A stretch of DNA of 64,000 nt. Source: Symbiodinium sp. CCMP2592 (lineage: Eukaryota; Sar; Dinophyceae; Suessiales; Symbiodiniaceae). Numbering within the stretch: the first letter of the stretch is position 1; each line of letters begins with the position of its first letter. Location of the stretch: the NCBI GenBank assembly GCA_905221615.1, contig CAJNDT010000322.1:65001-129000 (forward strand). Direction: 5' to 3'. Both the position numbers and the translations under genes were made by a program. Positions 1,215 through 21,529 of this stretch are shown one piece after another. The notes under the pieces were generated by a model. It saw nothing but the letters and a program-made list of their open reading frames with translations, had not been told where the DNA came from and ran no database searches.

Positions 1215-4200
1215 CTAACGAGTTCGTTGCAAGAAAAGCATGTAGACGTTTCGGGAAAGTGATTGAACCAAGGCCGCTGAGGCCCTCTCCGGAAGCTTGT
1301 AGTCGTCGCAAATCCACACCTGAGATCTCGCATCCGCGGGGTCCTCTGGCCAGAAGGCTCGGTAGTGCCCGGACGCTAGGGAGTCCCCAAAGTGGGCAAC
1401 TCCTGCCAGGACTTGGTAGGATCGTTGGGCAGTGTGCTCGCTGGATGTCCACACGGACACCATGGCACGGCCGGTCCAGGCGCACGGCTGGGTATTCTTG
1501 ACACCGTCTTGCCATCTGCAAATCACAACAGCTAGGAGTTCTGGGGCCCATACCAGCGCTCGACTAAAAGTTTGCGATTCCCAGAATCTTAGGCAGGCTT
1601 GGAGAGACAGAGGTCCCGTCGGAAGGGGAAGGAGAAGAGGACTGACTCCCACATCCGACTCCTCAACGATTCCCCCAGTACGACCCTGCCACTGAGTGTG
1701 CTGAAGGGATCCCATGGGCTTTTGCTGCAGATGGTGAAGAAATTCTGAGACATCGTGTTGCCTGCCATCTAGTCGCCAACCGGCAATGGCATGGCGAAAT
1801 TCAAACAGGCCGAACAAGTTCAGAAGTCTAGGGGCACTCTCATCCCCGAGATGGGTTAAGACAGATTGAAAAGCACCCAGATCATACCCAAAGCTCGATA
1901 CTTGATGCAAGGCCTGGAAGAGAGCGTTAGCGTAGCAGGAGTTTGCCGTGTTAGACAGTACGCGTTTGTGTAAGCCTGTAGGCTGTGGCTCTGTGTTCCT
2001 GGGGGCCTGCGCCACAGACTCCTGGATCGAGTCTGTTGTAGGATGACGAGCTGTGCTCGACGAGTTGGAGGCTGTGCCATTCGACCTAGGTCTAAAAAAG
2101 CTGGCCAACGACTTTGTCTGAGGCTTGGGAGGCGGGGCGACGGGATCGACGTCCGCGTCAGGCTGCCCTCGCAGCCACTGCGTGCTTACCTGATAGAGCA
2201 CCGGACACTGCTCCGGATGCAGTCTGCGGTCATAGACCTTGTAGCCACAGAAGGGACATGAGTGGCCCTTGGCTAACTGGGGCGAGTAGCCCTGACAGAT
2301 ATTAACAGCCCGCCTGTGTAGGCGTGACCAGTCCTTAGGATGCGCCTGACGAAAGTGCGACTTGACTTTGGTGTGGTCAAAAGTCCAGAAGTCACACGTT
2401 AAGCACCGATGATTAAGGACCTTGGAATCCGCAGTCCTCGAGAGCTCCGCGATGCGGTGTTGTGGGAGCAGAGCAATGTCCTGTCTCAGCTGGAAGAGAG
2501 TCCTAATATCGGGATGGTTGGACTGTTTGTCTGCTTCTTTTAGTGAACGGAGCTTCTGAGGTTCCGGACATGCCCCCGAAAGCAAGTGGTCACGTAGGCC
2601 TTTCCATTGATGGAATTTACGCTTACATGCCGCACATTGCGGCATCCCATCCACAGCGTGGAGCTTTCTATCGAAGCTTGAAGGCACAAAGCGGTCAATG
2701 CTCGCCGGATGAACCCTCGACTTATGCAAATGTAGTCCATTTGACGTCTGAAATGAAGCCGCGCAGAGCGTGCACTCGTATGAGGTTACCGGATGTTCCT
2801 CGGGCTCAGGGAGTTGTGACAGGACCAACAGCTTATCTCGGATAACCTGCAGAACCGAGGGGTCTGTCGTGATGTCCGGGCTTTGCACTGCTCGTCGCTC
2901 CAGTTTGCGAAGCCGCTTCCTTAGCTTGGACTGCAGTGCGTGGACAGGGTCCTGGATGTTGTAGAGCTGGAAAAGATCCTTAGTGGTGATCCGAGTGGTG
3001 TGAGCCGGCAGGTTCAGCACCGATCGTACCTTGTAGGCGTGCCAGCTGCGAAGCTGTTTGGCCGACTCTTCGCTTAAACCGACGTCAGATAGGCCAGTCG
3101 TCAAGGTGCCCAGGACAGTACTCTGCCACACCTTAAGGCGCGACATGGTACTTGCATACCTGCGGTTGTAGACGAATTGGCGAACTTGATGCAACTTTTG
3201 CTTCGCCTCCCCCATCCGAAAATGCAGGGTCTGCAACTCGAAGTGGTTGTAGGAGATCATAACTCCTAAGTACTTGCTTGAGGAGACCCACTGGAAGGCA
3301 GGGAACGACTTGTTGGGCCCGATGCGCCACCCTCTGACTGGCTCTCCTTTGGGGTTGGTAATCCAGCAGCTGTGTTTGTTCATCACATTTTGTGCTTCTC
3401 TACCTGCCAGCTTTACCAAAATGACGCACTTGCCGATGTTGACTCTGAGTCGATGTTTGCGGACCTCCTCCAACAGGGCAGCTATAAGTGCATGGATGGC
3501 CTTGAGGTCCTTCTCAGAACGAATAGTCCTATGAAGCGTCAGGTCATCGGCGTAGCCCGTTAAAAACTTCAGAACCTGTTCAGCACCGAACAGATCAACC
3601 AGAGACCGGAAGAGGTCACCTGTGAGGAACGAGAATAGGGTGGGAGCGAGCTTACATCCTTGTTTAATGCCTGCTGTGGTTTCGATAGAAGTGGAATCGC
3701 CTTGGGCATGTAAGACGTATCTGGATCCGTCATGGAGAGCTTGAACGAGGTGGACTGTGTCCTGATCGGCCCCCTCGCGCTGAAGGAGACCGATAATCTC
3801 TTGGCGAGAGACTGTGTCAAACGCCTGGCTTAGGTCTAAAGCAAAGGTCAGACCGCCTACTAGAGATGGCACCTGTGTGCCTTGCTGTATAGCATGTCTC
3901 GTAGGATGAGCCTGCTCCAACAAAGACCGAGCCTCCCGCAGATGGCACACGACTCTTTCCAGCGCATCTGAAAGCCCACGACCAGGAAGGTAGGCAAACT
4001 GTGGCATATGTTTTAGGAACGAGAGGGTCAGGGGTTGTAGCGCCTCTCTTGCCGCTCCAGCCAGTCCTTTAGCATCCGGTCTCAAAATTCCCAAAGGACG
4101 CAAGTTTGCTGGCTTGTCCGAAGGCTTGCCCGGTTTGGGGATTAGACACAGATCTGCGTCGATGAGATCAGATTCTAGTCCATCCTCTACTTGTTTAGCA

Positions 4201-6071
4201 GCCACATGTCGGGAAAGGACCGGTGCAATGACGTCACTGCAAAGTCTCCAAATGGCAGCAGGTGCAGCTCCGTCAGGCACAGCTTTATTAGGCTTGATGG
4301 AATGAATGTGAGCGGCTAATTTGGATGACTCCAAAACCGGAAAAGCTCCAGTCATTGGCCTCAGCGGGGGGTGAGCCGCGAAAACCTGGTTCGCGTACTC
4401 CCTGAGTGCCGCAAGCTCCTGCGCTGGGCCTAGAAGATGTCCTGTGCTGTCCTTGAGCTGAGCCCGACGCGCCGGCTGCCAAGGCTGCAGCTTTTTAAGG
4501 GTTTGAAACGAAATATGTTGGTCGCCCTCCGCTATGCTGGCGTCAACTTCAGCTATGAAACCCGCTATTCTGTCCTTTTTTGCTTGCTTCACAGCTTGTC
4601 TGTGCGCAACTTGCGCCAGCTCCACCTCAGTTTCCGGTTTGGGGAGTGTGTTCAACCCAGGAGGCTGTGCCATTGGTTGATGAGGCTCGATCAGCTGTGC
4701 TGAGGGAGCTGTGTTGTCTGCCCTGCAAAGGGTCCTGGCCCTCCACATACGTCGAGTCTCGGATTCAAGCGGGATCAGTCGTCTTTTGGGGAGCTTGGGG
4801 AAGAAACGTTCTGCACCCTCCAGCAGCAGTGCATTCCAATCTGAAGGGTCCTGACAGGACTCCATTCTGGATTTCACCCAACTATGCAGTGCCTTGGCTG
4901 TGTCGTCCTCCTCACGGACTGCGGCCTGAAGAGCTAGGGAATCATAACGGCGTGTGCTTCCCTTGTGCGGTGGGAGTAACCAGTGGTGCTGGAGGGGGAT
5001 TTCGGCCTTAATTGGGTAGTGCCCTCCCTTCTTCCAGCTACCCAACGGGCAGTCCGTCCAAGGGGCTGACCTTTTGGCCTTGCCTCCTGCAGTGGATTCC
5101 TTAGTAAGGACAAAATCGATTTGCGACTCCACGCCACCTTGAGCAAAGGTGGCAATGTTGTCACAGTGCCAGGTATTAAGGGCCACCAATCGCAACCTTA
5201 GCAGCAGGTTGGACAAGTGGGATTCGTCAGGACGATCCTCCGTGGGCTGCTTCACGTGTGTACCCACCAATGGAGGACACGAGCGCAGGGAGGTATTAAA
5301 GTCGCCTGCCACGACTAGAGAATCCCGCTTGGGCACCTGCTTGACCACCTTAGACATGACTGATAGTACATGAGCACGGTCGTCCTTGTTAGACTGGATG
5401 GACTTGGCCGAGGACCAAGCATGTTGATACACAGCCACAATGACCAGCCTAGTACCTGCCATGTCTGCACGAGCTTCAAGGACCCTGCCTGGACTCCACT
5501 CCTTCCAGCGAAGGCTCTTGGCTGTAAACTTGGGTGAGAAGAGAATCATGACGCCATCCGCCCGGGTCGTGGATGGAGCCGCTTTCGGTTCCTGCCTAGT
5601 CTTGCGCTTCGCGCCCTGCTTCTGCTGGGTGCTACGTTTGGCAGACTCCGAGGCCGAAGAGATGCAATGCCAACCTGAAACACTGAACTCGCTAGTCTCC
5701 GTCCAGTGCGTCTCCTGCAGGATAAGGACGTCGCAGTGGTGGGAGGCTTCAGCTGCCAGCCACGTTTTTAGTTCTCCCCATTGCTGTTGACCTAGGTGCC
5801 CCGCGTTCCAAGAGACTACCCGAATGGATCTTTCTAGTCGTCCTGCCCTGCGGGAGGCTGTGCCATGTGCAGGGGAGTCAGCAGTCTGTGACTGAAGCTC
5901 TCTTCGAGTCGGTGGGGGCCGCACCCCCAACTGGTTGACTAGGGTCGGTGTCAGAACCTGTCCGCGGTATGGTACGGGTCCGTCACTTCTGATTGTCCGT
6001 CTACATGCTGTCTTGAACGAATTCTTGCGAAGAGATGCAAAGTTTTGTGAGTGCACTGGTAGTTGCGCCAT
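1215..6071 (-). CDS. LINE polyprotein: APE-like endonuclease, reverse transcriptase, zinc fingers, USP protease
   Basis: This single intact frame encodes 1618 residues. Residues 83-360 form an exonuclease-endonuclease-phosphatase domain: N89 in SWNA, E120 in LQET, the GDFN motif at 257-260, D319 in QIDF and H351 in GGHYPI. Residues 640-900 are an RT: motif A ALDLSQAFD (744-752), motif B GIKQGCKLAP (801-810) and YADD (840-843). Four zinc-finger-like units follow at about 1100-1121, 1146-1168, 1223-1244 and 1272-1289; two are C2H2 and two end in Cys. The last 250 residues form a USP (family C19) fold: Cys box NTANSCYANALFQAL with C1379, QHD at 1438-1440, His box SGHYRAF with H1569, CDD at 1588-1590 and the usual terminal strand VYMLFLQRTR. 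All catalytic positions are present. The first two domains would carry out target-primed reverse transcription; a deubiquitinase role is inferred from motifs only. The ATG at 6071 is the first in frame. Confidence 0.9.
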   Translation of the reverse strand: MAQLPVHSQNFASLRKNSFKTACRRTIRSDGPVPYRGQVLTPTLVNQLGVRPPPTRRELQSQTADSPAHGTASRRAGRLERSIRVVSWNAGHLGQQQWGELKTWLAAEASHHCDVLILQETHWTETSEFSVSGWHCISSASESAKRSTQQKQGAKRKTRQEPKAAPSTTRADGVMILFSPKFTAKSLRWKEWSPGRVLEARADMAGTRLVIVAVYQHAWSSAKSIQSNKDDRAHVLSVMSKVVKQVPKRDSLVVAGDFNTSLRSCPPLVGTHVKQPTEDRPDESHLSNLLLRLRLVALNTWHCDNIATFAQGGVESQIDFVLTKESTAGGKAKRSAPWTDCPLGSWKKGGHYPIKAEIPLQHHWLLPPHKGSTRRYDSLALQAAVREEDDTAKALHSWVKSRMESCQDPSDWNALLLEGAERFFPKLPKRRLIPLESETRRMWRARTLCRADNTAPSAQLIEPHQPMAQPPGLNTLPKPETEVELAQVAHRQAVKQAKKDRIAGFIAEVDASIAEGDQHISFQTLKKLQPWQPARRAQLKDSTGHLLGPAQELAALREYANQVFAAHPPLRPMTGAFPVLESSKLAAHIHSIKPNKAVPDGAAPAAIWRLCSDVIAPVLSRHVAAKQVEDGLESDLIDADLCLIPKPGKPSDKPANLRPLGILRPDAKGLAGAAREALQPLTLSFLKHMPQFAYLPGRGLSDALERVVCHLREARSLLEQAHPTRHAIQQGTQVPSLVGGLTFALDLSQAFDTVSRQEIIGLLQREGADQDTVHLVQALHDGSRYVLHAQGDSTSIETTAGIKQGCKLAPTLFSFLTGDLFRSLVDLFGAEQVLKFLTGYADDLTLHRTIRSEKDLKAIHALIAALLEEVRKHRLRVNIGKCVILVKLAGREAQNVMNKHSCWITNPKGEPVRGWRIGPNKSFPAFQWVSSSKYLGVMISYNHFELQTLHFRMGEAKQKLHQVRQFVYNRRYASTMSRLKVWQSTVLGTLTTGLSDVGLSEESAKQLRSWHAYKVRSVLNLPAHTTRITTKDLFQLYNIQDPVHALQSKLRKRLRKLERRAVQSPDITTDPSVLQVIRDKLLVLSQLPEPEEHPVTSYECTLCAASFQTSNGLHLHKSRVHPASIDRFVPSSFDRKLHAVDGMPQCAACKRKFHQWKGLRDHLLSGACPEPQKLRSLKEADKQSNHPDIRTLFQLRQDIALLPQHRIAELSRTADSKVLNHRCLTCDFWTFDHTKVKSHFRQAHPKDWSRLHRRAVNICQGYSPQLAKGHSCPFCGYKVYDRRLHPEQCPVLYQVSTQWLRGQPDADVDPVAPPPKPQTKSLASFFRPRSNGTASNSSSTARHPTTDSIQESVAQAPRNTEPQPTGLHKRVLSNTANSCYANALFQALHQVSSFGYDLGAFQSVLTHLGDESAPRLLNLFGLFEFRHAIAGWRLDGRQHDVSEFLHHLQQKPMGSLQHTQWQGRTGGIVEESDVGVSPLLLPLPTGPLSLQACLRFWESQTFSRALVWAPELLAVVICRWQDGVKNTQPCAWTGRAMVSVWTSSEHTAQRSYQVLAGVAHFGDSLASGHYRAFWPEDPADARSQVWICDDYKLPERASAALVQSLSRNVYMLFLQRTR
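2094..2117 (-). other. PIP-box-like peptide just before the USP domain
   Basis: Residues 1319-1326 of the LINE protein read TKSLASFF, followed by RPR. The spacing (hydrophobic at position 4, two aromatics at positions 7 and 8, basic residues after) matches the PCNA-interacting peptide, except that Thr replaces the usual first Gln; a Gln lies one residue upstream. It sits in a Pro/Ser-rich linker between the last zinc finger and the protease, where a docking peptide would be exposed. This is a motif match only. Confidence 0.35.
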
Positions 6072-6363
6072 CCGCTAATTTCGTCAAGAGACAGAAGCCT
6101 AATGACTCCCTCCACTGCGCGGAAGTGGAAACCCTACCGCCTACCCAGTGTTGCAATGTTTTAAACAGAGTCTGGGCCCAGGAATTGGGACCTGGCGGCT
6201 CAAAGCAGCTCCTGTGAGAAAAGGGAGAGGACCATGGCGTAGAAGGAGGCACAAACCTTTACTGTTCAGAAAAAGGCCCGGTTGGAACCTCTAGCACAGC
6301 AGTTGCGCCCCAAGCCTGTTCGAAACCTCTCATTCAGCGCGGCCGCTTGAGCACTTGTGGCGG

Positions 6364-6373
6364 CTCTCTACTA

Positions 6374-6422
<49 letters not shown>

Positions 6423-6530
6423 TACTACTACTACTACTACTATTACTTCTACTACTGCCACCACTATTACTACTACTACTACTACTACTACTACTGTACT
6501 TCTACTACTACTATCATCGGATTTTTCGCG
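6364..6530. repeat. (CTA)n trinucleotide microsatellite
   Basis: An almost continuous CTA/ACT run with a few interruptions. It borders the 5' side of the minus-strand LINE. The Leu-, Thr- or Tyr-rich frames it opens on the plus strand are not genes. Confidence 0.9.
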
Positions 6531-6700
6531 TTTTTTAGTGTTTTTCGTGTTTTTCGCGTTTTTCGTTTTTTTCGCGTTTTTCGCGTTTTTCGCGTTTTTC
6601 GCGTTTTTCGCGTTTTTCGCGTTTTTCGCGTTTTTCGCGTTTTTCGCGTTTTCGCGTTTTTCGCGCTTTTCGCGTTTTTCGCGTTTTCGCGTTTTTCGCC
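6531..6700. repeat. Nonanucleotide array, unit TTTTTCGCG
   Basis: About fifteen tandem copies of a 9-bp unit close to TTTTTCGCG, with 8- and 10-bp variants. It directly abuts the CTA array. The long Phe-rich and Lys/Arg-rich frames are by-products of a period divisible by three. Confidence 0.9.
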
Positions 6701-9400
6701 TCCACCTCTGCGCCTCCGCTTAGCTGAGACACACAAAGCGTTTCCACAGAACCCTAACTCTTCAGTCCCGCTTCAGCACTTGGCCGCCAGGGGTGCCAGT
6801 CGTATGCGATGCTGCATTCATCCACAACTTGATTGGATTATTAGCCTGATGCGCTTCATGGTTTTATGGTTGGGGGCTTAATCAGCGACTCCCGTTTAGA
6901 CTAAAAAAAGGTTCGACAACACTTGGTCGAAATTTCTGAGGTGTAGGTATTTCAGGCAGGCTGCCCCCGTGTAGGGGTCAGACAAAAGTTCAAGCCCGGA
7001 TGCAAACGGAAAGAATGCAATGACCGTATCGACGTTTACGCCGCTTCTTTGAGGAATGAGACGGTGTGTTCTTTTGACGCATTCCCGGGACAATACCCGG
7101 AGGCCTAGACCAAAGAGTTGAAGCGCCACGGTGCACAGTACGCTTTTACTGGCATGAATTGGCATTAGAAAGTGTTGCAAGGCCTTTCTAGCAGAACGGC
7201 GAAGGATGCACAACTGATGAACGAAGGGGTGTACCTGTGTATATCTTCAAGTGCTCGTATGTCGGTTTGGTAAAATATCTAGCTTGATAAACAAGTCAGT
7301 ACCTATGTATGTTTGTATTTTCATATGTATATGTATATGTATACTGTATATGTGTATATACATACATGTATGTACATAAACAAACTGTCACATACACGTA
7401 CACATCTTGGAACTATAGTAGATGCGGGAATCTCACTGCGAACTAAAAGGAATCTTCGGTCAGATTCTCCCACTCAGGTCAAGGTTAGAGGCAAGCTTGC
7501 ACCGAGAAAGAACTCTGCCATCTACCCCCGAACCCTGCTGGCAAACACCTTTGGCAATAGCGTTGACCTGAAGTTTCAGGAGAATCAGTGATTGTATAGC
7601 TACGTGCGACCGGCCGAAGTTGCTCTGGAACAAAGCAAACAACAGTATGAACATGGAAAATCCAATTTTTCAATGCTGTCGGTTGTTCCCAGTCACTGGC
7701 AGAGCTAGTATGTTTGACAGTATCCGAAACGATGATGGATGTTCTTTGCGCACTTTGGAGATACATGGCGCAAGGCACAGTTCAGACTACTTGGACACGT
7801 GTTGCGAGCCAGCCCTGAATCCTTTGTTCAAGCTGCTTCCAAGCAGACGATTTGACACTTTGACCTCCCACAAGGAGGCGGCCAGGCAGGCCCAAAACAG
7901 ATTGGAAGACCGAAGCTTGTAAAGGTGTATATAAGACATTGCCTTGAGATTCTAACAGGCGTTCTGGCACAAGGCAACGTGGGCCTTCATCAGTTAGCTT
8001 AATATTCCCTCCCGATCTCATACTGCAATGCTTGTGCTGGACGTGGGACCATGACTGACATTATGCTTTACGTGATTGACGTTAGCACCTTCGATTTTCT
8101 TTACGAACTACGGTGTGTTCTACATTGCCTCACTTTCTTCAGGCTGATGTTCCTGGCCACCACGACAACATCGTCGACCTAAAGATTCAATTCCTGATTG
8201 CTGGAATGAGGGGGAGCTCCACATACCATCTCTCCACAGGCCGCTGGAATGAATCTGCTTGAGACTGGAAGTTCTGCGAAAAAGGTGCCGGTACCAGCGA
8301 TTGCTGCCATCTGATTGGTCGCTGACCACATACTACAGCTTATGACGAGCACAACAAGCTGGATGCGGGCGCACTTTTCTAGGCCACCAATCTCCCTTTC
8401 GATACCATGGAATTCTGGGCATGGGTGAGCTTGGGCGACCACTGGCCAAACAAGGTGACTATATCTCCACGAGCTCGATCTGACTCCACGCTGGAGCTTC
8501 GGCCATGGCCCCACGCGTAGCACGCGTCTGTCTCCACAGGCCATCAGAAGAGTTTGCCTGCATGTGTCTGGCTTACATGGCAGTTCCAAACCATGTTGCC
8601 CACCACGGGTTGCCGCAGGAGCCGCCAGTGGCGAGCCGGCAGTCCACGATCTCCTTCTGCTAGTTTGCCTCCTTCACTGGACACACCACCCACTCTTTGT
8701 ACGATGATCAGTGGACGCGAATCCTGCACTGCATGGGCATCGAGGGTCGTTCAATTGGCTGAGAGGTTTTGCTCCCTATACATATTTTGTTTTTCTCCTG
8801 CCCTCTGCTGGAAAGCTTACCCAAGTCCAGCTTCGGGTGCCCCCGAAAGGGTAGAGCCCGCGCATCCTCTTTTGTACATTCAATGTTTTCTCAGAGGCTG
8901 CTCCTTCTTTTCCGTTCCGCTACAAGTTTTTCCACCAGCATCGGGTGGCCGTTCCTGATTAATTTCCTTCTTTTTTCTGTACATACTCCTGACGTTTGAG
9001 TGGGCTGCTGACAGGCGCTCCTGAGCATGGATTCGCCTTGCGCATCGGGGCGAGAGAGAGAGAGAGAGATTGGGATTCTAACATGTTCTAAGGTGTTTGA
9101 AGTCAATAGTATGCAAAGTTTTTAGTGAAATCAAACAGTCAGCTAGAAATCCTGAAGGACCCGTTGCTGTGTAACATGAAGAGCACATACCGGGACACAG
9201 TCCCAAAGGCCATCGACGTTTCGAAGCATTCGTCGCGGTACACTCGCCATTTTTGCTTGGGAACCGTGGTGCCAGTTTTCTATTTCTAGGTTCTTCATTG
9301 CAGCACTAATGGTGTTGGTTTTGTATTTTGAATGACTGCCGAACCTGTCTCACTGTCGTAGTGTACCTGTACTCTTGTTTTGCAGGTTCAAACCTGTTGA
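6701..9400. other. No recognisable gene
   Basis: Apart from a short (TATG)n-like run at about 7304-7380 and a (GA)n run near 9050-9068, I see no gene, exon series or element. The open frames are under about 140 codons and carry no motif I recognise. Confidence 0.5.
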
Positions 9401-9420
9401 GAGCCCTGCTCTGCCCGACA

Positions 9421-9650
9421 GAAAAGCACAAGCACATACGCATACACATACACATGCACATGCACATACACATGCACATACAATAAGACGTACACACACA
9501 TGCACATGTACATGTACATATACGATATATGAATATGTATATGTATATGTATATGTCTATGTGTATTTTTGTAGGCATAGGTATAGGTACAGGTATATGT
9601 GTACATGCATATGTGTATGTATATGTATATGTATATGTATATGTACATGC

Positions 9651-9689
<39 letters not shown>

Positions 9690-9713
9690 CGTATACGTAT
9701 ATGTATATGTATA

Positions 9714-9750
<37 letters not shown>

Positions 9751-9894
9751 GTCTATGTATATGGTATATGGTATATGGTATATGGTATATGGTATATGGT
9801 ATATGGTATATGGTATATGGTATATGTATATGTATATGTATATGTGTATGTATATGTATATGTATATGTTATACGTATGTGTATATTTTATACG

Positions 9895-9944
<50 letters not shown>

Positions 9945-10080
9945 TTATTCACATATAGATTTGGATGCACATTCATGTGTTTGTATGTTCATATGATTTT
10001 GCATGTGTATTTGTGTGTGTAGTCTGCATACACGCACATATGGACATACATATATATATATATGTATATAATATATACAC
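9421..10080. repeat. Compound microsatellite: (ACATGC)n, (TATGTA)n, (GGTATAT)n, (AT)n
   Basis: A block of about 660 bp moves from CA/TG-rich six-base units to (TATGTA)n, then (TGTGTA)n, then about ten heptamers of ATGGTAT type (about 9758-9825), then TATGTA again and finally pure (AT)n near 9905-9940. Every open frame inside is a Tyr/Val/Met or Ile/Cys tandem and is not coding. Confidence 0.95.
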
Positions 10081-11230
10081 ATATTATTTGTATGCCATGC
10101 ACCTTGAACCACATTGAACTAGCACGTAACCACATTGAACTAGCGCGTGGCTTCTCGCAGAGCCTGAACGGTTTCACGACCGCCCAACCACGGCAGGACG
10201 TTGGACAATGAATGCAATGCTGGCTGGAAATGAGAAGAATGGATCGCAACGACAACCAATACGTCGCAGCTTGCAAGCTACTCACGGTTGAGCATGTAAG
10301 CATGTATAATATAAGCTTATGCACTCCATGATATTTATTCCTCCTGTTCTTGTAGGCTTTCCGTGGTACAAGTGTCAAACACCCAACCAGATTGCAAGCT
10401 GCAAGATACTGGTTGTTCCTCCAATCCCGTCTTATCAGGCAATCTCGTTTTGCTTTGGGCATTGCTGTTGTAGTGTCGTGAAGCATCCGGGCCATCATGG
10501 CCGTGACCACATCTCTTGTTGTCCTACAGTACTGTGAATCATGTCCCAGTCCGCATTTCGACAAAGCCCAGAATGCGTCTCGACATACATTTCCGTTTCT
10601 GTTGCGAACACCCGTGCTGCGTACGTACACAGACATAGGGATCGTAAAGCAAAGGCTTCAATGCCTCAATCTTGCAGATTATGTCAAAACTGCCTCCAAC
10701 CTTTCGACAGTCCGGCTGTTTATCAGCCCGGTACTCCGAGTACTCCCATGACGTGTGCAAACATGGTGCACTTGGATGTTTTTGGAGAGTTGGAATAATG
10801 GATAGCAGCATGTAGGATGCGGCAAAGCTGACGCTTGTTCTGCAATGCCACTGCATGTGCATGTCCTTCGCCAACCCCCGATCCAACTCAAAGACTTCCG
10901 CTCCCCTTCACGATTTTTTTTTCGATTGCGCCATTGGTTTACTTTAATCCGCTAAAGCCGAAATTTACCAAGATGCACTTCGACATGCACCCTGTCGCGT
11001 ACTACACCTACCAAATTGCACCTCGTGATGCGATTTAATCGCAAAGGTAACTTAGGGTTGTGGATGTTGTAGTGGAATGCAGCGATAGCTAAGTAGTCCA
11101 ACATAATTCCGGGAGGACAAAGGACGCACATAGCAGGTATAGAAACTTGCACTTACAAAGTAGGCGGCAAAAGTCACGAAAACAATTGCCTCTTGTTTTC
11201 GCGTTGCCAAAATCATGTGCATGATCATAG
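10081..11230. other. No recognisable gene; one short direct repeat
   Basis: A 20-bp unit, ACCACATTGAACTAGC plus CGT, occurs twice at about 10108-10147. Otherwise nothing is recognisable up to the copia-type terminal repeat. Confidence 0.5.
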
Positions 11231-11390
11231 TTGAGAAAACACGTACCCCCAGGCCCTTCTTATGTAGATCATCATGAAGCAGTTTCACCCGAAGACGTTA
11301 TTACCGATATTTGGCTCCAGTTTGGCTCAAGACACAAAAGAAACGTTATCATCACTGTGTCTTGGAATCAGAGATTGCACTGCAATGAAC
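11231..11390 (+). repeat. Left copia-type terminal repeat (LTR-like) with spliced-leader-like tract
   Basis: About 160 bp closely match 22012-22160: both contain GAAGCAGTTTCACCCGAAG and the CTTGGAATCAGAGATTG block, with a few substitutions. The left copy has an extra 11-12 bp, so the tract ATTTGGCTCCAG is followed at once by TTTGGCTCAAG, whereas the right copy has one ATTTGGCTCAAG. These tracts match the 3' end of the DinoSL. The homology ends near TGCAATGAAC. Together with the polypurine tract before the right copy, this suggests short LTRs of the same copia family. Whether the two belong to one insertion is uncertain. Confidence 0.6.
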
Positions 11391-11694
11391 TGGTTAACAG
11401 CCTCAGCTTTGCTTGGTGTAGGTAGCGTAGGAGCCTACCGACGCCATAGCACCTTCCATATTGCTCCCTTAGGGTAGGGCTTGAAATCGGAGTGTCATTG
11501 GTCTGTGAGAGACCTACCCGCCATTCCACATTTCTTTCCATATTTGCACTGTTATCTGTACTCCCCGCGTAGGTAGAGCCAGCCACCGGGTAGAGTCTGT
11601 CCTTTCTTTAACATTCTTACCAACCTCAGCCCCTGCTTCGGCACCTTGCCAACAGGGAGCTTTCCATATTGCTGAACCACAGAATCATTAGTGT

Positions 11695-12000
11695 ATGCCC
11701 ACGCCTGAGGGTTGGCCTACGCTTTGGGAACGTGTGGTTTACTTCTTCACAGAGCTGTATTACGATATCCGAATCTTCATCTTAAGGAGGTTCTTTCCTG
11801 TATACTTGGCCAGGCGGCAACGTTGGGTTAGAGCCCGTGTGAGGTTGCGCAGGCTTGTGCGTAAGTTGCTTCGCTCCTTCTACAGGAGAGTTGAGCTCAC
11901 GACTGCCTTGTATCGCATTCACCACTCATCTCATCCTAGGTACATACACGACACCGCCTTTGTAGCAATCTACCTTCAAGTTCCTCGTTATTTCCCATAG
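11695..12000 (+). CDS. Arg-rich 101-residue protein, function unknown
   Basis: An ATG-initiated frame begins about 300 bp inside the left terminal repeat. Its N-terminal half is aromatic and hydrophobic (ERVVYFFTELYYDIRIFI); the middle is very basic (RRQRWVRARVRLRRLVRKL). It could be the first product of the element or a chance frame in the leader. No family is recognised. Its position between the repeat and the next ORF is the main reason to keep it. Confidence 0.35.
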   Translation: MPTPEGWPTLWERVVYFFTELYYDIRIFILRRFFPVYLARRQRWVRARVRLRRLVRKLLRSFYRRVELTTALYRIHHSSHPRYIHDTAFVAIYLQVPRYFP

Positions 12001-12467
12001 CTGTTGTTCGTGTCTCCACGTCGTGTGTCGAGGCGCGCACTTACTCCTCCGCCCCCCGCGTCGAGGAGACAGCTTGGACCATCTGCCTGATACAGGGCTG
12101 ATTCGGCAACTGCCAACAGTCCTCATATCCTCAACATCTTCCTGGACTTTCCGAACAGCCGGTGTCGGCACCTTGCCACCCGGAACACCCGAAATCCAAT
12201 CACCTTGCCCAACGGTCCGTTCACGACTTCAGGGTAGCAAGGCCTCGTGGTGATTGGAAGGATTAGCTGAGATTGAATCAAAGGTTCGATTTCTGGTTTC
12301 GGTCGATCTCATAAGATTTGGGATTCTGGAACAATTGGTAAGCACTTCCGCCTCTGCTGCCGTGTCGGCACTTAGCCACCGGCCGCATCCTGGTTGGTTG
12401 TGGTTGGTTGTCCTGTCGGTTGAGTGTAGTTTTCCGACGAAGTCACCTGCATCATCCGATAGGCCGT

Positions 12468-12550
12468 CAGTTAAGCCAACGATTCTGGCATAGGGACAGT
12501 TAAGCCAACGATTCCGGCAAAGGGGAACATCAAGCCATATCAAGCCACAG
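12468..12550 (+). repeat. Tandem 30-bp leader repeats
   Basis: CAGTTAAGCCAACGATTC occurs at 12468 and again at 12498. It is followed by decayed CAAGCCA(C/T)A units. The repeats lie in the untranslated stretch before the 405-codon frame. Confidence 0.7.
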
Positions 12551-12681
12551 TAGCGGCATTGGGGGATACACCTACTTCAAGCCACAGTTCTGGCACTGAG
12601 GGGTAAATTTGCAAGCCACTCTAACGGCACGGGAGTTTCATTGGGACTTGGAGTTAATAGGCTTTCTCGTCTCACTCGTGT

Positions 12682-13899
12682 ATGCTTTCCTCGAATCGCC
12701 GTGAAGAGCTTCTTGGACTTGCTGCGGCATTTGGAGCCGACGCCCGTGCTTCTAGAGGCGGCCGGGCCGCCAACAATAAGCGCCGCTCACTTCATATAAA
12801 GCTGCTTCAGCTTTGGCGAGAGAGTTTGACAAACCTCGCCGAGGAAGTGTTCAGCAGGCCTCCAGGGCAGGTACCGGCATTGGCCTCCAAATTCTTTAGA
12901 GTAAGCGCGCGGCTTACACAGATCTCTGCGTCTGGGTACGTGATTTATAAGGGGACTCCTCTTCTTCCGAGGGAGGAGGAGGTGGAGGAGGAAGAGTCTG
13001 ACACAGACTCGGTGTTGCAGGAGCCGATTTCGCTACAGGATTTGGCCGAGGTTTCTTTGGACTCTTTGGACACTTCTGAGCGAGCAGAGCCAGCTTCTTC
13101 ATCAGCCGAGCCAGCTTCTTCATCTTCCCACTTGGGCAGCTCACTTGAGCGCAGGTCGCGGTCGCCTTCTGTTCGTGACCAGCCTGACTTCAGTGTGTTA
13201 AGTGGTTCCGATAGGCTAAGCTCCGGTAGACCGCTTCCTCCTGAACCCCCTGCTGCTCCCCTTAGACCCGTGCTAACACGGCACATTTCGGAAACAGGTC
13301 CCACTGCAGCGCCCGCGATCCCAGAACAGAGACCCAAGCAGAAGGCAAGGCCAAAGCCGAGGGCAGCATTGGTTCCTGTTCCTCCGCCTTTGCCTCCGCC
13401 TGCTTTTCGAGCGGCTGTTACGCGTACGGATCGTAATCCTCTTGACTTTGGTGCCGAGATACGGCGTGCATTGGCACAGAGTTCGGGTGTAACACACATT
13501 GTCAGTTTGGACTTCCATAACGTTGCCGATCGGAATTGGGGCTCCACTTGCGCTTTGGTCGATCGCTTGCGTGGCAGGCCTGAGGTGCTGCTTATTCTTT
13601 GCTCGAAGTGTTCCACGGAATCTTTAATCGTTAACGCTTTGGGTTACATTGAGGGCGTCTGCCGCGCTACGGGGTATAACATTCGCGACTGGCCGTGTTA
13701 CTTCATCCCCGGCAGCGACAAGAGCAATCAGCTGTGGAGTGCGATTGGACACGCTGGCCTTCGTGATATTCCATTGGCCCATTTCGACGATAAGTCTTTT
13801 ATTGTGAAGGCATTCAGCGATTGGGGCGTGCACTTGCCGACGTACGGCCGAGCTGAGCTCCTTGACGAGGCATTGCCCATCCTCTCGGAGTGGAGGTGA
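12682..13899 (+). CDS. Element-associated protein with degenerate HAD-like domain
   Basis: This intact ATG-initiated frame encodes 405 residues. Residues 1-90 are helical and basic; 95-245 are Glu-, Ser- and Pro-rich and probably disordered. Residues 265-405 show the four HAD-superfamily motifs in order: SLDFHNV (D277, with His279 where the second Asp normally is), a strand ending in S308 (LLILCS), K347 in GSDKSNQ, and the acidic pair D369-D370 in HFDDK. The nucleophile is kept but the acid/base Asp is His, so phosphatase activity is doubtful. It starts about 1.3 kb inside the left copia-type repeat, where a gag-type product would be expected. I infer it is element-borne, though no nucleocapsid zinc knuckle is visible. 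Confidence 0.6.
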   Translation: MLSSNRREELLGLAAAFGADARASRGGRAANNKRRSLHIKLLQLWRESLTNLAEEVFSRPPGQVPALASKFFRVSARLTQISASGYVIYKGTPLLPREEEVEEEESDTDSVLQEPISLQDLAEVSLDSLDTSERAEPASSSAEPASSSSHLGSSLERRSRSPSVRDQPDFSVLSGSDRLSSGRPLPPEPPAAPLRPVLTRHISETGPTAAPAIPEQRPKQKARPKPRAALVPVPPPLPPPAFRAAVTRTDRNPLDFGAEIRRALAQSSGVTHIVSLDFHNVADRNWGSTCALVDRLRGRPEVLLILCSKCSTESLIVNALGYIEGVCRATGYNIRDWPCYFIPGSDKSNQLWSAIGHAGLRDIPLAHFDDKSFIVKAFSDWGVHLPTYGRAELLDEALPILSEWR

Positions 13900-13977
13900 G
13901 AAAACACCAGAGCGGACAACCGGTGCTTCGGCATTTGGCCAACACCGAAATTAGCAACATCCCCAGTCCTCCTAAGC

Positions 13978-14198
13978 ATGTCTTTCGTGGGCCATGACTC
14001 AGAGGAGCAGAGTTCCTTTCAGATTACATCATCCAGTAGTGGGGTTAGGGCATTGCCGGCGAGAGCATCCTCTAGATCATCCCGAGGTTCACGCAGTAGC
14101 CACAGCCAGCTCTTCCCCATCACCAACCGTAAGAAAAGGCCCTCACCTCAAACAAACCCCCAACCCCTGACAAAGGAGGTAGTGGGTCGTTGGTGCCA
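13978..14198 (+). CDS. Ser/Arg-rich partial ORF ending in the assembly gap
   Basis: An ATG at 13978 opens a frame in the same phase as the preceding 405-codon protein, about 80 bp after its stop. It is Ser- and Arg-rich (SSRSSRGSRSSHS) with a basic patch NRKKRP, then runs into the run of Ns. It may be the next element product or the start of the gene that resumes after the gap. It cannot be resolved here. Confidence 0.4.
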
Positions 14199-14298
14199 NN
14201 NNNNNNNNNNNNNNNNNNNNNNNNNNNNNNNNNNNNNNNNNNNNNNNNNNNNNNNNNNNNNNNNNNNNNNNNNNNNNNNNNNNNNNNNNNNNNNNNNN
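14199..14298. other. Assembly gap (100 N)
   Basis: Exactly 100 undetermined bases, the usual scaffold gap of unknown true length. Joining the left element half to the gene on the right depends on it. Confidence 1.
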
Positions 14299-17062
14299 AG
14301 CGTACGAAGCACTGATTAACGAGAACCCCGAAACAGAAGATGTGCTGTACGATAAAAGAGGCAAAAACGGGTCACTGCGCATCGGTGTGATCAGCGCCTC
14401 CAAAGTCCACTTGAAGAACATATTGGACAAGGAGAAGTCAACGAACGCCCGGGAAACCACATTCAAGGACGAGGGAGCCCAGCTCAAGGATCTCACAAAG
14501 CACCGGAACTTGATCGGTGATGCAATGGGTGCAGCCAGAGAGATGCTCAGAGCAGGCCAGGCCGGATCCATTTACACACCAGGGAACATGGATGTGGATG
14601 TCGAGGCCTTGCAGAAAGACCTAGATGCTCAGCTGATTGAGTTGAGAGGGCCAGGCTGTTCAGGTCTGAGGTTCCAAGTTCTTGAGACGACAGCCATGAC
14701 ACAGAGCCGTGTGGAGTGCGATTGTTGCGTTGATGTCAGCAGCCAGTCACGGGAGTGTCGCGGGAGTGTCGCGGAAGTGTCGCGGAAGTGTCGCGGAAGT
14801 GTCGCGGAAGTGTAGGACTCTAATCTAAGCAGTGTCCAAGGAGTCAGAGGCCGAGGATTCTGAGTCAGGGGACGACCAAGAGAAAGCAGCCGGCAGTTCC
14901 AAGAAACCGGCAACGGCGAAGACTCCGCCCAGCGCTGAGAGGAAAAGGGCAAGGTCCGCACGATCTTCAGGCGGCTCAGATGAGCAGGATCCTTCGGATG
15001 AGGAGGATGGTTCGGGTGATTCTGAGAAAGGAAAGCAGAGGAACAAATCCAGAGGCAGAGGAAAGGGCGGCCGTGGCGGTCGCGGTCGCGGCGGCAAAAG
15101 CAGATGGGATCGAGACACTCCGATCTCTGCCAAAATTCGTGCAGAGAAAACGATTTTGGTCAACCTCTCGGTGGCATTGAAGGAGAAAGCCAACTCGGCG
15201 CACGAAGTGTTGGCACTTCTGAAGAGTCGCGGCAAGAGAGCGGAGCCGGATTGCAAGGTTGAGAAAGACTCAGTGGAGAAAAGGCTGGTCTTTATGCAGT
15301 CGGTGCTCGGTGAAAAATCCGGGGACCTTCAGCTGCTGATCGACGAGTACAAGCCCGAAGACAAAAGCAAGAAGCCGGAGAACAAGGACAAGGACAATGC
15401 CGAAGGGGACGGGGCAGGCGCTCCGGCGGCTGCGGATGGTGCCGGGCCTGCCGGGGCCGGGGCGGCCACGGCGACAGGGTGGGAACGGCAGTTGCAAATG
15501 GCTCCTCCCATCGACAACTACGAGAAGCTCGTGACTCTGCACTCGATAGAGTCTACGCAGGAACAGCTCTTCTGGGAATGCCAGAGCAAGGAGCAGCTTC
15601 AGGAGCTTGTGAAAGCACGAGCAGCAGATCGCAAGCCGATCACCGAGCTTCGATCCGCGCTCGAAGCAAGCATCAAAGAGTTGCGGAAGGCCGTCACAGC
15701 CCACGATCAGCGCGTGGCCAGCATGAAGTCCGCCAAGAAGAATTTCAAGGAGAAGGACAGCAAGTCCGGCAAGTCCAAGCCACTTGTCTTGTTTGACCAC
15801 GGCTTGGACGTCTGTGCCGAGATTGCCCAGATCAAAGACTTGAAGGATCTGGGCTCAGCGAACATGGACCAGCCCTTCATGTTCCGGCTCCCTGATGAGA
15901 TTGCCACCGCCCTTGCCCAGGAAGTGCCTGGTTTGCACATTTCTATGCATCTTGTTTGCCTCGAATTTGCATGCCATGAGACTTATCATGAGAGCAGTCC
16001 AGCACATCCTGAGGCGACGTGTTGTGTTTAGCTCAGGACAGCCTGAAGAGCGCGATGAAGCAGTTCCACATTGCATTCAAAGAGCGTGTAAGTACGTTGG
16101 AGAGACAGAACATGGTCAAGCCTCCTGCTGAAAGGCCCAAGGCTCGTGCAAGTTCCAAGATGACAGGCGAGGCCCTCTCGTGTCTCCAGACGGTCCTCCA
16201 GGGCCAGGGCGAGCAGATCTTGAAAGTGGCTGAGGGCAAGGAAAAGGAATGCCAGCTCCATCACTTTGGTGTGCAAGCCGGGAATGTCACCGCCGGCGCC
16301 GAGCCAGATGAACTGGCCAGTGTGAGGGTGATCTTGCAGGGAACGAGGTGCATCGTCGCAGGTCCCGCCAAGGCAGTGATTGAGGCATTGTCTCTGGAAG
16401 AGCCGGAGAACGGCGGTCAGAATCAGAATGCCGGGGCCCTTTGGCAGAGGTTCTTGAACCTTACGAAAAAGGACTTGGAAAAGACAGCTTGCCATTTGAG
16501 GCAGGGCACTCAGGGTGCCCAGGATGGACTTTATCTTCCATCCGGATGGGTCTTCGCGGAGACCGTGCTCGAGAGAGATGTGGAGGGATTCTTGTGGCGA
16601 GGACAGCCGCGAGCCATCACTGCCATCCCGACCGAGGCGGCCAGCACTGCCATCACTGCCATCCCGACCGAGGCGGCCCAGGCACCCCAAAGCACCCAAG
16701 CCGATGAAGACAAGGCCGAGTCCCAGGCGGAGAATCCCAACAAGCACCAGGGTTCAGCTGAGGCACCCGGAACCGCTGAGGCCCAAGCGGCCCAAGCCGA
16801 GCAAGCCAAGCGCGAGGAGCCCCAGCCCCAGGCCCCAAAGTCCCCAAAGCCAAATGACGGTTTGGCAACAGGTGAGGGTGAGCACAACAAGGGCAAGCCA
16901 GAACCATCGAAGCCTCAAGGGCCTGAAGCCGTAGAGAAGTCAGCAGGCTCAGCCGGCTCAGCAGAGCAAGCAGTGGATCCACCCGTCGCCGCGAAAGCCA
17001 CAAAGCCAAAGAAGACCAAAGATGAATGCATCATCACCTCAGAGGCCATCAACATCAACTGA
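14299..17062 (+). CDS. Multi-exon gene of unknown function with RGG-rich segment
   Basis: The coding sequence resumes right after the gap and covers at least three exons: about 14299-14640, about 14832-15923, and 16037-17062 (TGA). The second intron (15924-16036, GT..AG, acceptor AG|G) is well supported because the frame changes cleanly across it. The product has an acidic/basic disordered stretch, an RGG-like segment (GRGKGGRGGRGRGG near 15055) and helical regions around EKTILVNLSVALKEKANS. Its C-terminus is Ala/Pro/Gln-rich with ITAIPTEAA repeated. RGG tracts often bind RNA; I infer nothing beyond that. Parts of its last exon (about 16320-16610) are the source of the minisatellites at 18.2-19.6 kb. 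Confidence 0.55.
14750..14814 (+). repeat. 11-bp minisatellite, unit TCGCGGAAGTG
   Basis: About six tandem copies, the first ones reading GGGAGTG, sit in the presumed first intron of the gene at 14.3-17.1 kb, about 15 bp before the next exon. Confidence 0.85.
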
Positions 17063-17098
17063 GTGCAGCCACGCCTTAGGCGCTGAGGCATCCATTCA

Positions 17099-17336
17099 GG
17101 CATTTTGATTTCTTCACTTGCAACGTCATGCAACGCATTTTCCACTCGGCATGGCGGCAGCAGCAAGGCACCACGGCACCATTTCAAGATTCAGTGACAG
17201 CTGTGTGAAAAATGTTCCCACGGTGTGCAGCGTGTCTTTGAAGGATTCTTGGCCACAGAATGTGCCACTCACTCTGATCGTGGACCGGTTGACCGTTGAT
17301 TGTATGTTGTGCCATCCGCTGCCATGTTCATGTTAC
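17099..17336 (+). repeat. Duplicated segment, copy 1 (other copy 18020-18215)
   Basis: The stretch with GTCATGCAACGCATTTTCCA, the CAAGATTCAGTGACAGCTGT block and GTATGTTGTGCCATCCGCTG recurs in the same order at 18020-18215, with small deletions in the second copy. The two flank the exons at 17376-18003, so this is a local direct duplication. Confidence 0.85.
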
Positions 17337-17375
17337 GGGTTCTAGTTGCTAGCCCGCTTGCACTGCTTAGCGATC

Positions 17376-18003
17376 CCTCCAGCTACTGTCCGGAGATCAT
17401 GATCATCATCCAGACGGGGCGCTTGTGTGAGGGGCACTTGATGAACGTCATGTTGCAGATGTTGGTACTGCATGGATTCGACGATGGCAAGGTGAAGGAC
17501 CGTGCCGTGCAACTAAGACAAGTTTTGACTGCAGCAGCTTGCATGGCAAGCGATGAGAACAAGAAAGTGTGCCAGGCCGGTCAGTTGTTTGGAGTTGAAA
17601 TCGAAGAGTGGTCAGGAGTCAGGACATGATGTAAGATTTGTTGTGTAGAGATGTAAGACTAGGGGTTTCAAGATGCAATCCCAAAGAACAGGCATCAGCT
17701 GTGCTGTTTCAGTGCGTCGAAGATATGGTGGAATCCATGGACGAGTACGGCAACTTTCGCAAGCTCGTCGAGGTCCCATGGGTTGATTCGGTCCCGTATT
17801 TCCCTGAGCTGGACAAGCGACTCTTGCAAGGGGCATCCCATGCATCTGCGCTGAAAGATGCAAGCGACTTTCTCGATTTCATGCAAGAAGAAAAAATCCG
17901 TAATCCACGAGACTCAGAGTTAGGCCAGGAGAATGAAGCGTTTGAAATGCTTCTAGAAGCTGCGAAGGTTCTGAAAGAGCAATGGGCACGCCTTAGGCGG
18001 TGA
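17376..18003 (+). CDS. Two probable exons of an unknown helical protein
   Basis: Exon-like frame one (about 17376-17611) reads through IMIIIQTGRLCEGHLMNVML and QAGQLFGVEIEEW. Frame two (about 17720-18003) begins near CVEDMVESMDEYGNF and ends WARLRR followed by TGA. Between them is an approximately 100-bp AG-bounded interval with stops. Both parts look coding in composition, with alternating charged and hydrophobic residues and few rare codons, but I recognise no family. They could be 3' exons of the upstream gene's neighbour or part of the duplicated block that surrounds them. Confidence 0.4.
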
Positions 18004-19559: not shown

Positions 19560-20240
19560 TGATTCAGGATCCCCCCGAGTGGGGTGGGCCCCCCGAGGCT
19601 GCTAAGAAAGCCTCGGGGACGGAATTTTTTCGGCTGCAACGGGTGTCTGCCTCATCGTGGCGCAGTCGTCCAGTACCCTTGCGAGGGGAAGCTAAATGGC
19701 ACCCAACATTTGTTCAAAACCTCTAGGCGCTATGCGAAGCCTCAAGAACGATTATTTTTCGGCTGCAAATGGTGGCAGCCTCATCGTGGCGCAGTCGTCC
19801 AGTGCCCTTGTGCGGGGAAGCGAATGGCACCCGAAAAAACTATCAAAGTCCACTAGGGCCAGCCATGGTTTGCTTGATTTTGCTTTGAATTTGTGTTTAA
19901 AATTGCTTGTAACAGTGTCCCCACCCCGATATGCATTCGAAGTAAGCCGTGCAGAATCGAGACTTTACCCACAAGCCAGATTCAGCTACCTGTCGGGTAT
20001 CTTTCGCTGGCCTCAACTTCTGGTTTTGGTTATTTGTCACGCAAAAGAAACACGCACTAGGCCCGGTTCCTGTTTTATTTTGTTTTGAAGCGAAAAAAGC
20101 GCCGGTGACAGGGCCGGCTCCGGATTTATTGTGTTTTCAAGCGTAAAACCGCCGGTGCCAGGGGAAGGCCTTGTACCAGGCCGTTTAAGCCAATCTCAAT
20201 TCCACCGAGGGCCCAGGGTGAAGCTAGCAGCACCCAACAC
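19560..20240 (+). repeat. Intergenic stretch with a 128-bp-spaced direct duplication
   Basis: The block with TCATCGTGGCGCAGTCGTCC occurs at about 19624-19705 and again at 19752-19830. No gene is seen. The last bases before 20246 are probably the continuation of the copia pol upstream of its readable part. Confidence 0.7.
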
Positions 20241-20245
20241 AGCAC

Positions 20246-21529
20246 AAGTACAAAGGCCGTGTAGTCTTTAGGGGGGACCAAGTGCGCGACGCTTCTGGTA
20301 ACCCAGTGCTGTTTGGCTCAGAAGAAACTGCGACGACTCCAACCGGGTTGGTAGGTCTTGCCTCTTGCCTCTTTTATGGGCTCCGCCCAGGTCACGCGAC
20401 CTCGGTTGCGGATGCTATACAAGCGTACTTGCAAGCGAAGATCGGTCGAGAGACCTGGGTAATAATCCCTCGCGAGCTCTGGCTCCCCGAGTGGTCCCGG
20501 AGGTTCTCTCCCGACAGCCGTCTTGTAGTTAAACTTGAGAAAGGCTTATATGGGCATCCAGAATCAGGTAAGAGATGGCAAGACCACTTGACCGTCCAGT
20601 TGAAAAGGCTCGGAGGTCGCGAACTTCCCGCCTACCCTAGCACGTGGGTTTTCGAGTTCGGATCCCAGAAGCTAGTGCTTAATGTTTACGTCGATGACTT
20701 GACTTTAAGATTAGCTTCTAAAGTAAGTCGATGGGATAGGTTCGACGACCGTCAACTACTTCGTTGTGTGTCGTATCTCCATCACTCAAGTCGTGTGACT
20801 TTAAAAGGGTCTGTTTCGCAACAGGACTTAGGTTGCCAGATAAAGGTGTATACAGACGCAGACTTTGCTTCTTGCCCTCTGTCGGCGAAAAGCACGACTG
20901 GAATCCTCGTCGTCGCAAAGACCGGAGACTGCGCATATCTACTCCACTGGGTTTCGCGTAAGCAGTCCTCCACGGCTCGGTCCACGACAGAGGCCGAAAC
21001 GATCTCTCTTGCGACCGCCATGTTTTCAGAGGTAGAAAACCTTCAAGAGTCCTTAGGCGATATCCTTGGGTTCGAGATCCCGGTGTTTTATAGGCAATAT
21101 AATAATACCGTGATTTCTATTCTTAAGGGAGGCTATTCTGCTAAACTCCGCCACATGCCTAGGGTGCACAGGGTCAACGTAGCGTCTATCTGTGAGAGAC
21201 TCGCAGAGCCGCACGTCCAGATAACCTTTTGCCCTACGACGGAGCAACGAGCAAATGGGTTCACGAAAGTAATTAGCCCCCAAGAGTGGCCATCCATGCT
21301 GGAACAGCTTTGCCTGTCTGAGGGTTCCGCAAATGCCCCGATACCTGCTGCTCCATCACCGAACTTCGTTCTTGAAGATCCTCTTGCAGATACTGATCCG
21401 GAGTCTGTTGCCGGCATCCTGCCACACAGACGGAAAATCATATTCTGCAACTGTTCCACTTTCTTCCTCCAGATGCTTCGTCTCGTCCAGTCGTCTCTTT
21501 CGAGGGTAAGGGATTTACGACTGGGTTAA
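20246..21529 (+). pseudogene. Ty1/copia RT-RNase H, internally deleted
   Basis: The frame begins KYKGRVVFRGDQVRD, the conserved start of the copia RT, without its own start codon. It continues through the RT core (VVKLEKGLYGHPESGKRW) to the catalytic YVDD at 20687-20698. Shortly afterwards it jumps to the RT/RNase H connection (RQLLRCVSYLHHSS). The usual stretch between them is missing, so I read a deletion right after YVDD. The RNase H part is recognisable: VYTDADFA, STTG, HWVSRKQSSTARSTTEAE, then the copia C-terminal HMPRVHRVNVASICE region. Integrase and protease are absent. The frame ends at a stop at 21527-21529. It is the pol relic of the element ending in the right terminal repeat. Confidence 0.85.

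Follow-up and report, generated by a model that had tools for sequence, protein, structure and literature searches.

A ubiquitin-specific protease domain fused in frame to the C-terminus of a Symbiodinium LINE protein

Why should the protein of a long interspersed nuclear element (LINE) end in a ubiquitin-specific protease (USP)? The question is raised by a stretch of 64,000 nucleotides from Symbiodinium sp. CCMP2592 (assembly GCA_905221615.1, contig CAJNDT010000322.1, forward-strand positions 65,001 to 129,000), referred to here as the window, whose first 6.4 kb is one minus-strand element. Its frame is open over 1215-6074, giving 1619 codons ahead of the stop, and translation from the Met at 6071 gives 1618 stop-free residues. 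We label this protein P0001, and its relatives P0002 onward. The domain order, as observed from sequence and model, is endonuclease (EN), reverse transcriptase (RT), zinc units, linker and USP. An APE-like endonuclease lies N-terminal to RVT_1 in the same frame, the arrangement that defines an APE-type LINE, and the upstream stretch 6075-18000, read on the strand of the element, has no open reading frame (ORF) of at least 250 amino acids, so that a separate ORF1 is not seen here. We take the element to be a single-ORF, APE-type LINE belonging to a group whose protein terminates in a USP.

A preliminary description of this DNA, made from its letters alone, had claimed a complete USP with Cys1379, Gln-His-Asp, His1569 and Asp1589/1590 at the C-terminus of the LINE protein. 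The interval that it gave, 1218..1964 for residues 1370-1618, is exact, as are its residue numbers, and the Pfam match, the alignment and the predicted fold all bear the claim out. Pfam UCH (PF00443) matches residues 1372-1613 over profile positions 3-253 of 254, scoring 27.5 bits with the whole of P0001 and 35.5 and 35.4 bits with two cuts of the domain, against a cut-off of 23.9. A profile built from 11 sequences retrieves USPs from the PDB sequences at 2e-15, and both the predicted fold of the domain and its comparison with the PDB by Foldseek indicate a USP. The residues that define the C19 catalytic set, C1379, H1569 and D1590, are present in 12 of 12 aligned proteins; the GHY of residues 1568-1570 is encoded at 1362-1370. 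Known USPs (C19; for example USP30, USP46, USP12 and USP2) share the fold, the Cys box, the QxDxxEF box, the GHY box and the Asp. The P0001 domain differs from them in its fusion to EN and RT, in its five Cys without a CxxC pair (residues 1370-1618), and in its length, the UCH match being about 242 residues as against 280-370 in 45 of 50 chains among the matches listed. From sequence and model we conclude that the domain is a USP whose catalytic residues are all in place, and that it is joined in one frame to the EN-RT protein of a LINE. In a single-sequence search of the PDB, the top of 11 matches was Lsm5 (E 0.092), which we set aside as chance.

The remainder of P0001 comprises the EN, the RT, a zinc region and the linker (Table 1). 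The EN motifs QET, GDFN and [ST]QID are all present in eight of the nine aligned proteins that reach this region, P0001 included, the exception being P0039 with QET, GDTN and SRID. All 12 aligned proteins carry [YF]ADD in the RT, whose matches among PDB sequences include L1 ORF2p and R2. Of the 16 zinc ligand columns, 14 are invariant in 12 of 12 proteins and the remaining two are kept in 11 each; no zinc-finger family rises above cut-off in the Pfam scan of P0001, and the units are named from their spacing.

Is the fusion peculiar to this copy? Searching with the USP part of P0001 retrieved five relatives, and with that of P0005 two more in addition to itself. The RT-zinc part, a query that does not select for a USP, retrieved 39, from a search that scored the 7994 candidates sharing most words with it and of 0.55-1.75 times its length. 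In a six-protein alignment, P0002 is nearest to P0001 (59% identity overall), with P0003 at 49%. When 12 USP domains of the closer relatives are made into a profile, it finds P0022, P0024, P0031, P0036, P0039 and P0040, none of which contributed to it, at E 1e-19 to 2e-45; Pfam UCH is matched by 11 of 11 domains tested, these six among them. Scored with the 11-member profile, the 44 proteins (P0001 included) divide into 18 with a complete USP, 7 with a partial one and 19 with none, where 11 of the 18 are members of that profile and are counted by construction; within the 39 RT-zinc relatives the figures are 14, 6 and 19. Many of the complete-USP proteins belong to one family, that of P0003, whose cluster holds 104 member sequences. 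Of the 19 proteins lacking a USP, 17 drop out of the full-length profile ahead of the linker, at a point short of position 1300; three of them, P0042-P0044, are distantly related LINEs that run on for another 91-489 residues but have no USP there. Of the other two, P0038 continues past the zinc region with no recognisable USP found, and P0034, a gene model with many gaps, reaches 32.7 bits against the 12-domain profile in its best stretch. Four of the 39 carry organism names, all Symbiodinium: CCMP2456, microadriaticum (two) and pilosum. The preliminary description had named other dinoflagellate LINEs and other copies of this family as the place to look for the same domain. Related LINE families do have it, the nearest tested relative being only 59% identical, while blastn found no second copy of the element within the window. 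To the extent that related families can tell, the fusion in P0001 is not a freak of one copy. Searches of viral contigs gave nothing for P0001 or P0036, and for P0003 one pattern match without a relative. A search of genome contigs with P0003 gave one locus, L001, a USP-like stretch on a contig titled as a bacterial metagenome-assembled genome; the contig is 12,062 bases long and has no other match to the LINE profile, and the stretch was set aside as an unrelated USP.

The conservation of the domain bears on its age. Across 12 aligned proteins, pairwise identity falls as low as 23% in the RT and 19% in the USP, and Cys1379, Gln1438, Asp1440, Glu1443, His1569 and Asp1590 are invariant in all 12. 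RT and USP distances are correlated (r = 0.80, P 5e-5, 11 proteins), and the two trees have in common the groupings P0001+P0002, P0005+P0007 and P0022+P0024 and one six-member group. Because of this conservation, these correlated distances and these shared groups, the sequences fit an acquisition of the USP long ago, followed by inheritance alongside the RT. The shared forks are not all fully supported in both trees, long branches are flagged in both, and P0036 is placed differently in the two. A single origin of the USP is not proven by these trees, which hold LINE proteins only, without cellular USPs.

Between the zinc region and the USP, the linker of P0001 holds a motif that resembles a PIP box, the PCNA-binding peptide, whose consensus is Qxx[ILM]xx[FWY][FWY] with the hydrophobic core xxx[ILMV]xx[FWY][FWY]. 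The P0001 motif (Table 1) has this core, with T at position 1 where a strict PIP box has Q. Comparable linker motifs are TTPLHRYF in P0002, TRSLKDFF in the P0003 family (TRSLIDYF in P0013), TGPIQAFF in P0024, AGPLQSFF in P0022 and QSQLQRWF in P0031. Of ten representative linkers, two of which (those of P0005 and P0007) are close to each other, five have the core, as against 0.86 expected from 20,000 shuffles (P ~1.5e-4). When 11 proteins of the P0003 family are compared, six of the motif's eight columns do not vary, the others being a free position and the F/Y position. On these sequences we treat the motif as a good lead, and not as a PIP box.

What might the domain do? We think it probable, though by no wide measure, that it is an active, cis-acting deubiquitinase that would shield the element's complex, with PCNA a leading candidate substrate in the motif-bearing subgroup; the preliminary description, too, had proposed that it could guard element proteins or the RT complex against ubiquitin-dependent removal. 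Being part of the same protein as the nicking and reverse-transcribing activities, the USP would act in cis on ubiquitin carried either by the element's own protein/RNA particle or by host factors present where it inserts; the complex would be spared stalling, extraction or degradation in target-primed reverse transcription. For P0001 and the others of its subgroup, the PIP-like motif ahead of the USP may dock the element on PCNA. Ubiquitinated PCNA would then be a leading candidate substrate, together with the protein of the element itself, and a USP so placed could undo a mark of the PCNA mono-ubiquitin type. There is a parallel in human L1. L1 ORF1p is ubiquitinated by Rad6-Rad18, restriction of retrotransposition by Rad18 requires its Rad6-binding domain, and a possible involvement of mono-ubiquitinated PCNA is suggested by the authors (PMC6203705); ORF2p contacts PCNA through a PIP box or, according to more recent structural work, through another site (PMC7617806). 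One might picture a LINE clade whose USP, docked on PCNA by the PIP-like motif, removes the ubiquitin placed by a Rad18-like ligase at the nicked target, thereby countering host restriction, a proposal that we regard as tentative and rather doubtful.

Several results count against these proposals. The UCH score of full-length P0001 is modest, and the lone USP-domain sequence gave no significant match in a phmmer search of PDB sequences, its ten USP rows lying at E 0.38-0.7; it took a profile to find the family there. As to the motif, position 1 is Thr rather than Gln in four of the five motif-bearing linkers, the canonical Q form occurs in only one linker of ten (P0031), which is not significant (P 0.08), and the form beginning with Q or T, found in 5 of 10 linkers against 0.13 in shuffles, is a class picked after the motifs were known. 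P0031 also has a second core match, IQQLQLFF, adjoining the zinc region. The core is missing from five of the ten linkers (P0005, P0007, P0036, P0039 and P0040), and docking on PCNA therefore cannot account for the USP across the group. In the human system, a Rad18 RING mutant still suppressed L1, if more mildly, and added Rad6 brought no further inhibition (PMC6203705), while the PCNA contact has been put outside the canonical PIP box (PMC7617806).

The five linkers without the motif bear also on another explanation, to which we give a little less than an even chance: that the USP only protects the element's own protein or ribonucleoprotein from the proteasome by deubiquitinating itself in cis, the PIP-like motif being incidental or serving processivity rather than the choice of substrate. 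A USP retained where the motif is absent is what this predicts, the fusion to EN and RT would favour action in cis, and L1 ORF1p provides an example of a LINE protein targeted by Rad6-Rad18 (PMC6203705); what it leaves unexplained is the core in the other five linkers. Alternatively, the domain might deubiquitinate chromatin proteins at the target and so open it for insertion. The Foldseek matches do include USP16 on an H2AK119Ub nucleosome (8wg5, rank 40), but dinoflagellates are short of histones (PMC6723414), which would leave few nucleosomes for a USP to act on, and we consider this unlikely.

There are two further explanations. That the domain comes last in the protein, behind a linker, would suit a processing enzyme that cleaves the 1618-residue protein, as some retroelement proteases do. 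USPs, however, cleave after a ubiquitin tail, and a search for a ubiquitin-like LRGG site in P0001 found none; the Pfam scan of P0001, taken to E 1, lists no ubiquitin family. Linker identity, moreover, is 7-28% in all but two of the 66 pairs of proteins, so no common cutting site stands out, and self-processing appears improbable. Finally, the USP could be a host gene captured by chance and carried unused, a view left room by the fact that a role for it is argued from sequence and model. An unused USP would be expected to lose its catalytic residues, whereas all 12 proteins, at identities as low as 19%, retain the triad, and the RT and USP distances are correlated, which makes an idle passenger very improbable indeed. 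The shielding deubiquitinase remains the reading that we prefer.

How does such a protein compare with known systems? L1 ORF2p likewise has EN and then RT in one protein; to our knowledge it has no USP. The preliminary description named OTU and Ulp1 types as the proteases known from non-LTR elements. The OTU type is that of Dualen/RandI LINEs, which carry an OTU-like protease, also a deubiquitinase-type domain in a LINE, but of the OTU family and not a USP. The Ulp1 type is documented, in that the non-LTR elements NeSL and Utopia carry an Ulp1-like cysteine protease (PMC4640811). They thus share with P0001 a cysteine protease for ubiquitin-like proteins, but theirs is an N-terminal Ulp1, of another protease family, accompanied by a restriction-like endonuclease, whereas P0001 has an APE-type endonuclease and a C-terminal UCH, the one protease family that its Pfam scan lists up to E 1. 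Among DNA transposons, which do not reverse-transcribe, Ginger1 carries OTU or Ulp1, Mutator carries Ulp1, and in Trichomonas a peptidase C19 is joined to a transposase_11 domain, so that a fusion of C19 with a transposon has precedent in print; some Helitrons carry OTU (PMC2836005). SymbioLINE-Dnmt elements are also Symbiodinium LINEs with a captured enzyme, but this is a methyltransferase (DNMT) in an upstream ORF (PMC5890265). From the main text of that paper the words ubiquitin, UCH, protease and peptidase are absent, as is ubiquitin from those of PMC6338049 and PMC5718144; genomes of this group of hosts hold many LINE remnants, described in passages that do not mention ubiquitin (PMC8045281). 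No USP in a LINE is reported in the titles and abstract openings among the matches listed from the open-licence literature on added domains in LINEs and on dinoflagellate LINEs. Proteases in transposons are already known; a USP in a LINE, as far as this literature shows, appears to be new.

Table 1. Features of the element and its protein P0001, in window coordinates.
Feature	Residues	Position	Strand	Basis or note
Single intact LINE ORF	1618 aa	1218..6071	(-)	stop codon 1215-1217
APE-type endonuclease (Exo_endo_phos)	87-325	5097..5813	(-)	Pfam 26.3 bits, cut-off 24.5
Reverse transcriptase (RVT_1)	644-938, YADD at 840	3258..4142	(-)	Pfam 77.2 bits, cut-off 29.6
Zinc region, four C2H2/CCHC-like units	1100-1289	2205..2774	(-)	ligand spacing
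PIP-box-like TKSLASFF, linker	1319-1326	2094..2117	(-)	
USP (C19) domain	1370-1618	1218..1964	(-)	Pfam, profile, predicted fold, PDB comparison
Nucleophile by alignment	Cys1379	1935..1937	(-)	12/12 in one alignment, 11/11 in another
Gln-His-Asp of QxDxxEF box	1438-1440	1752..1760	(-)	Q1438 and D1440 in 12/12
Catalytic His by alignment, GHYR box	His1569	1365..1367	(-)	12/12
Third triad residue by alignment	Asp1589-Asp1590	1302..1307	(-)	D1590 12/12, D1589 11/12
(AGT)n array, 146 bases		6368..6513	(-)	directly upstream of presumed 5' end

The boundaries of the element are inferred from one copy only, and its 3' flank runs off the window, where its 3' side (1-9) reads GTAGTAGT. Given this sequence and the (AGT)n array at the presumed 5' end, this one copy may have inserted into an (AGT)n microsatellite. 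Adjoining the array, at 6522-6699, is a 9-base tandem array of TTTTTCGCG in 19.9 copies. The window also contains a second USP frame, at 43467-44306 (+) within an ORF at 42375-44318, which scores 41.2 bits with UCH and has Cys, QHD, GHYR and CDD motifs; P0005 is the nearest of eight LINE proteins tested (29% identity). The LINE profile finds no EN or RT beside it, the match extending back to 42969 with the score hardly raised, and its AlphaFold2 model (predicted local distance difference test, pLDDT, 56) was not used. A host gene, or a LINE of another family that has lost its 5' part, could account for this frame. A USP-like fragment at 33916-34185 (+) scores 27.4 bits with the LINE USP profile, UCH not being listed for its ORF at E<=0.01. 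Elsewhere there are an RVT_2 match at 20228-21526 (+; 32.8 bits, cut-off 31.6), which we take to be Copia-type, and a match at 46633-48159 (+; 50.5 bits) to the MHYT domain, for which Pfam gives the description bacterial signalling protein N-terminal repeat. A scan of the window for tRNA genes with ARAGORN was negative.

Ubiquitin control of LINEs has been studied from the side of the host, as with Rad18 and human L1 (PMC6203705), and a USP borne by the element would let the matter be seen from the other side, in a protein where one Cys-to-Ala change would separate deubiquitinase from reverse transcription. It would add the USP to the ubiquitin-type proteases taken up by LINEs. If the tentative PCNA-docked role is true, the enzyme that makes the insertion also brings with it a means of opposing restriction by the host.
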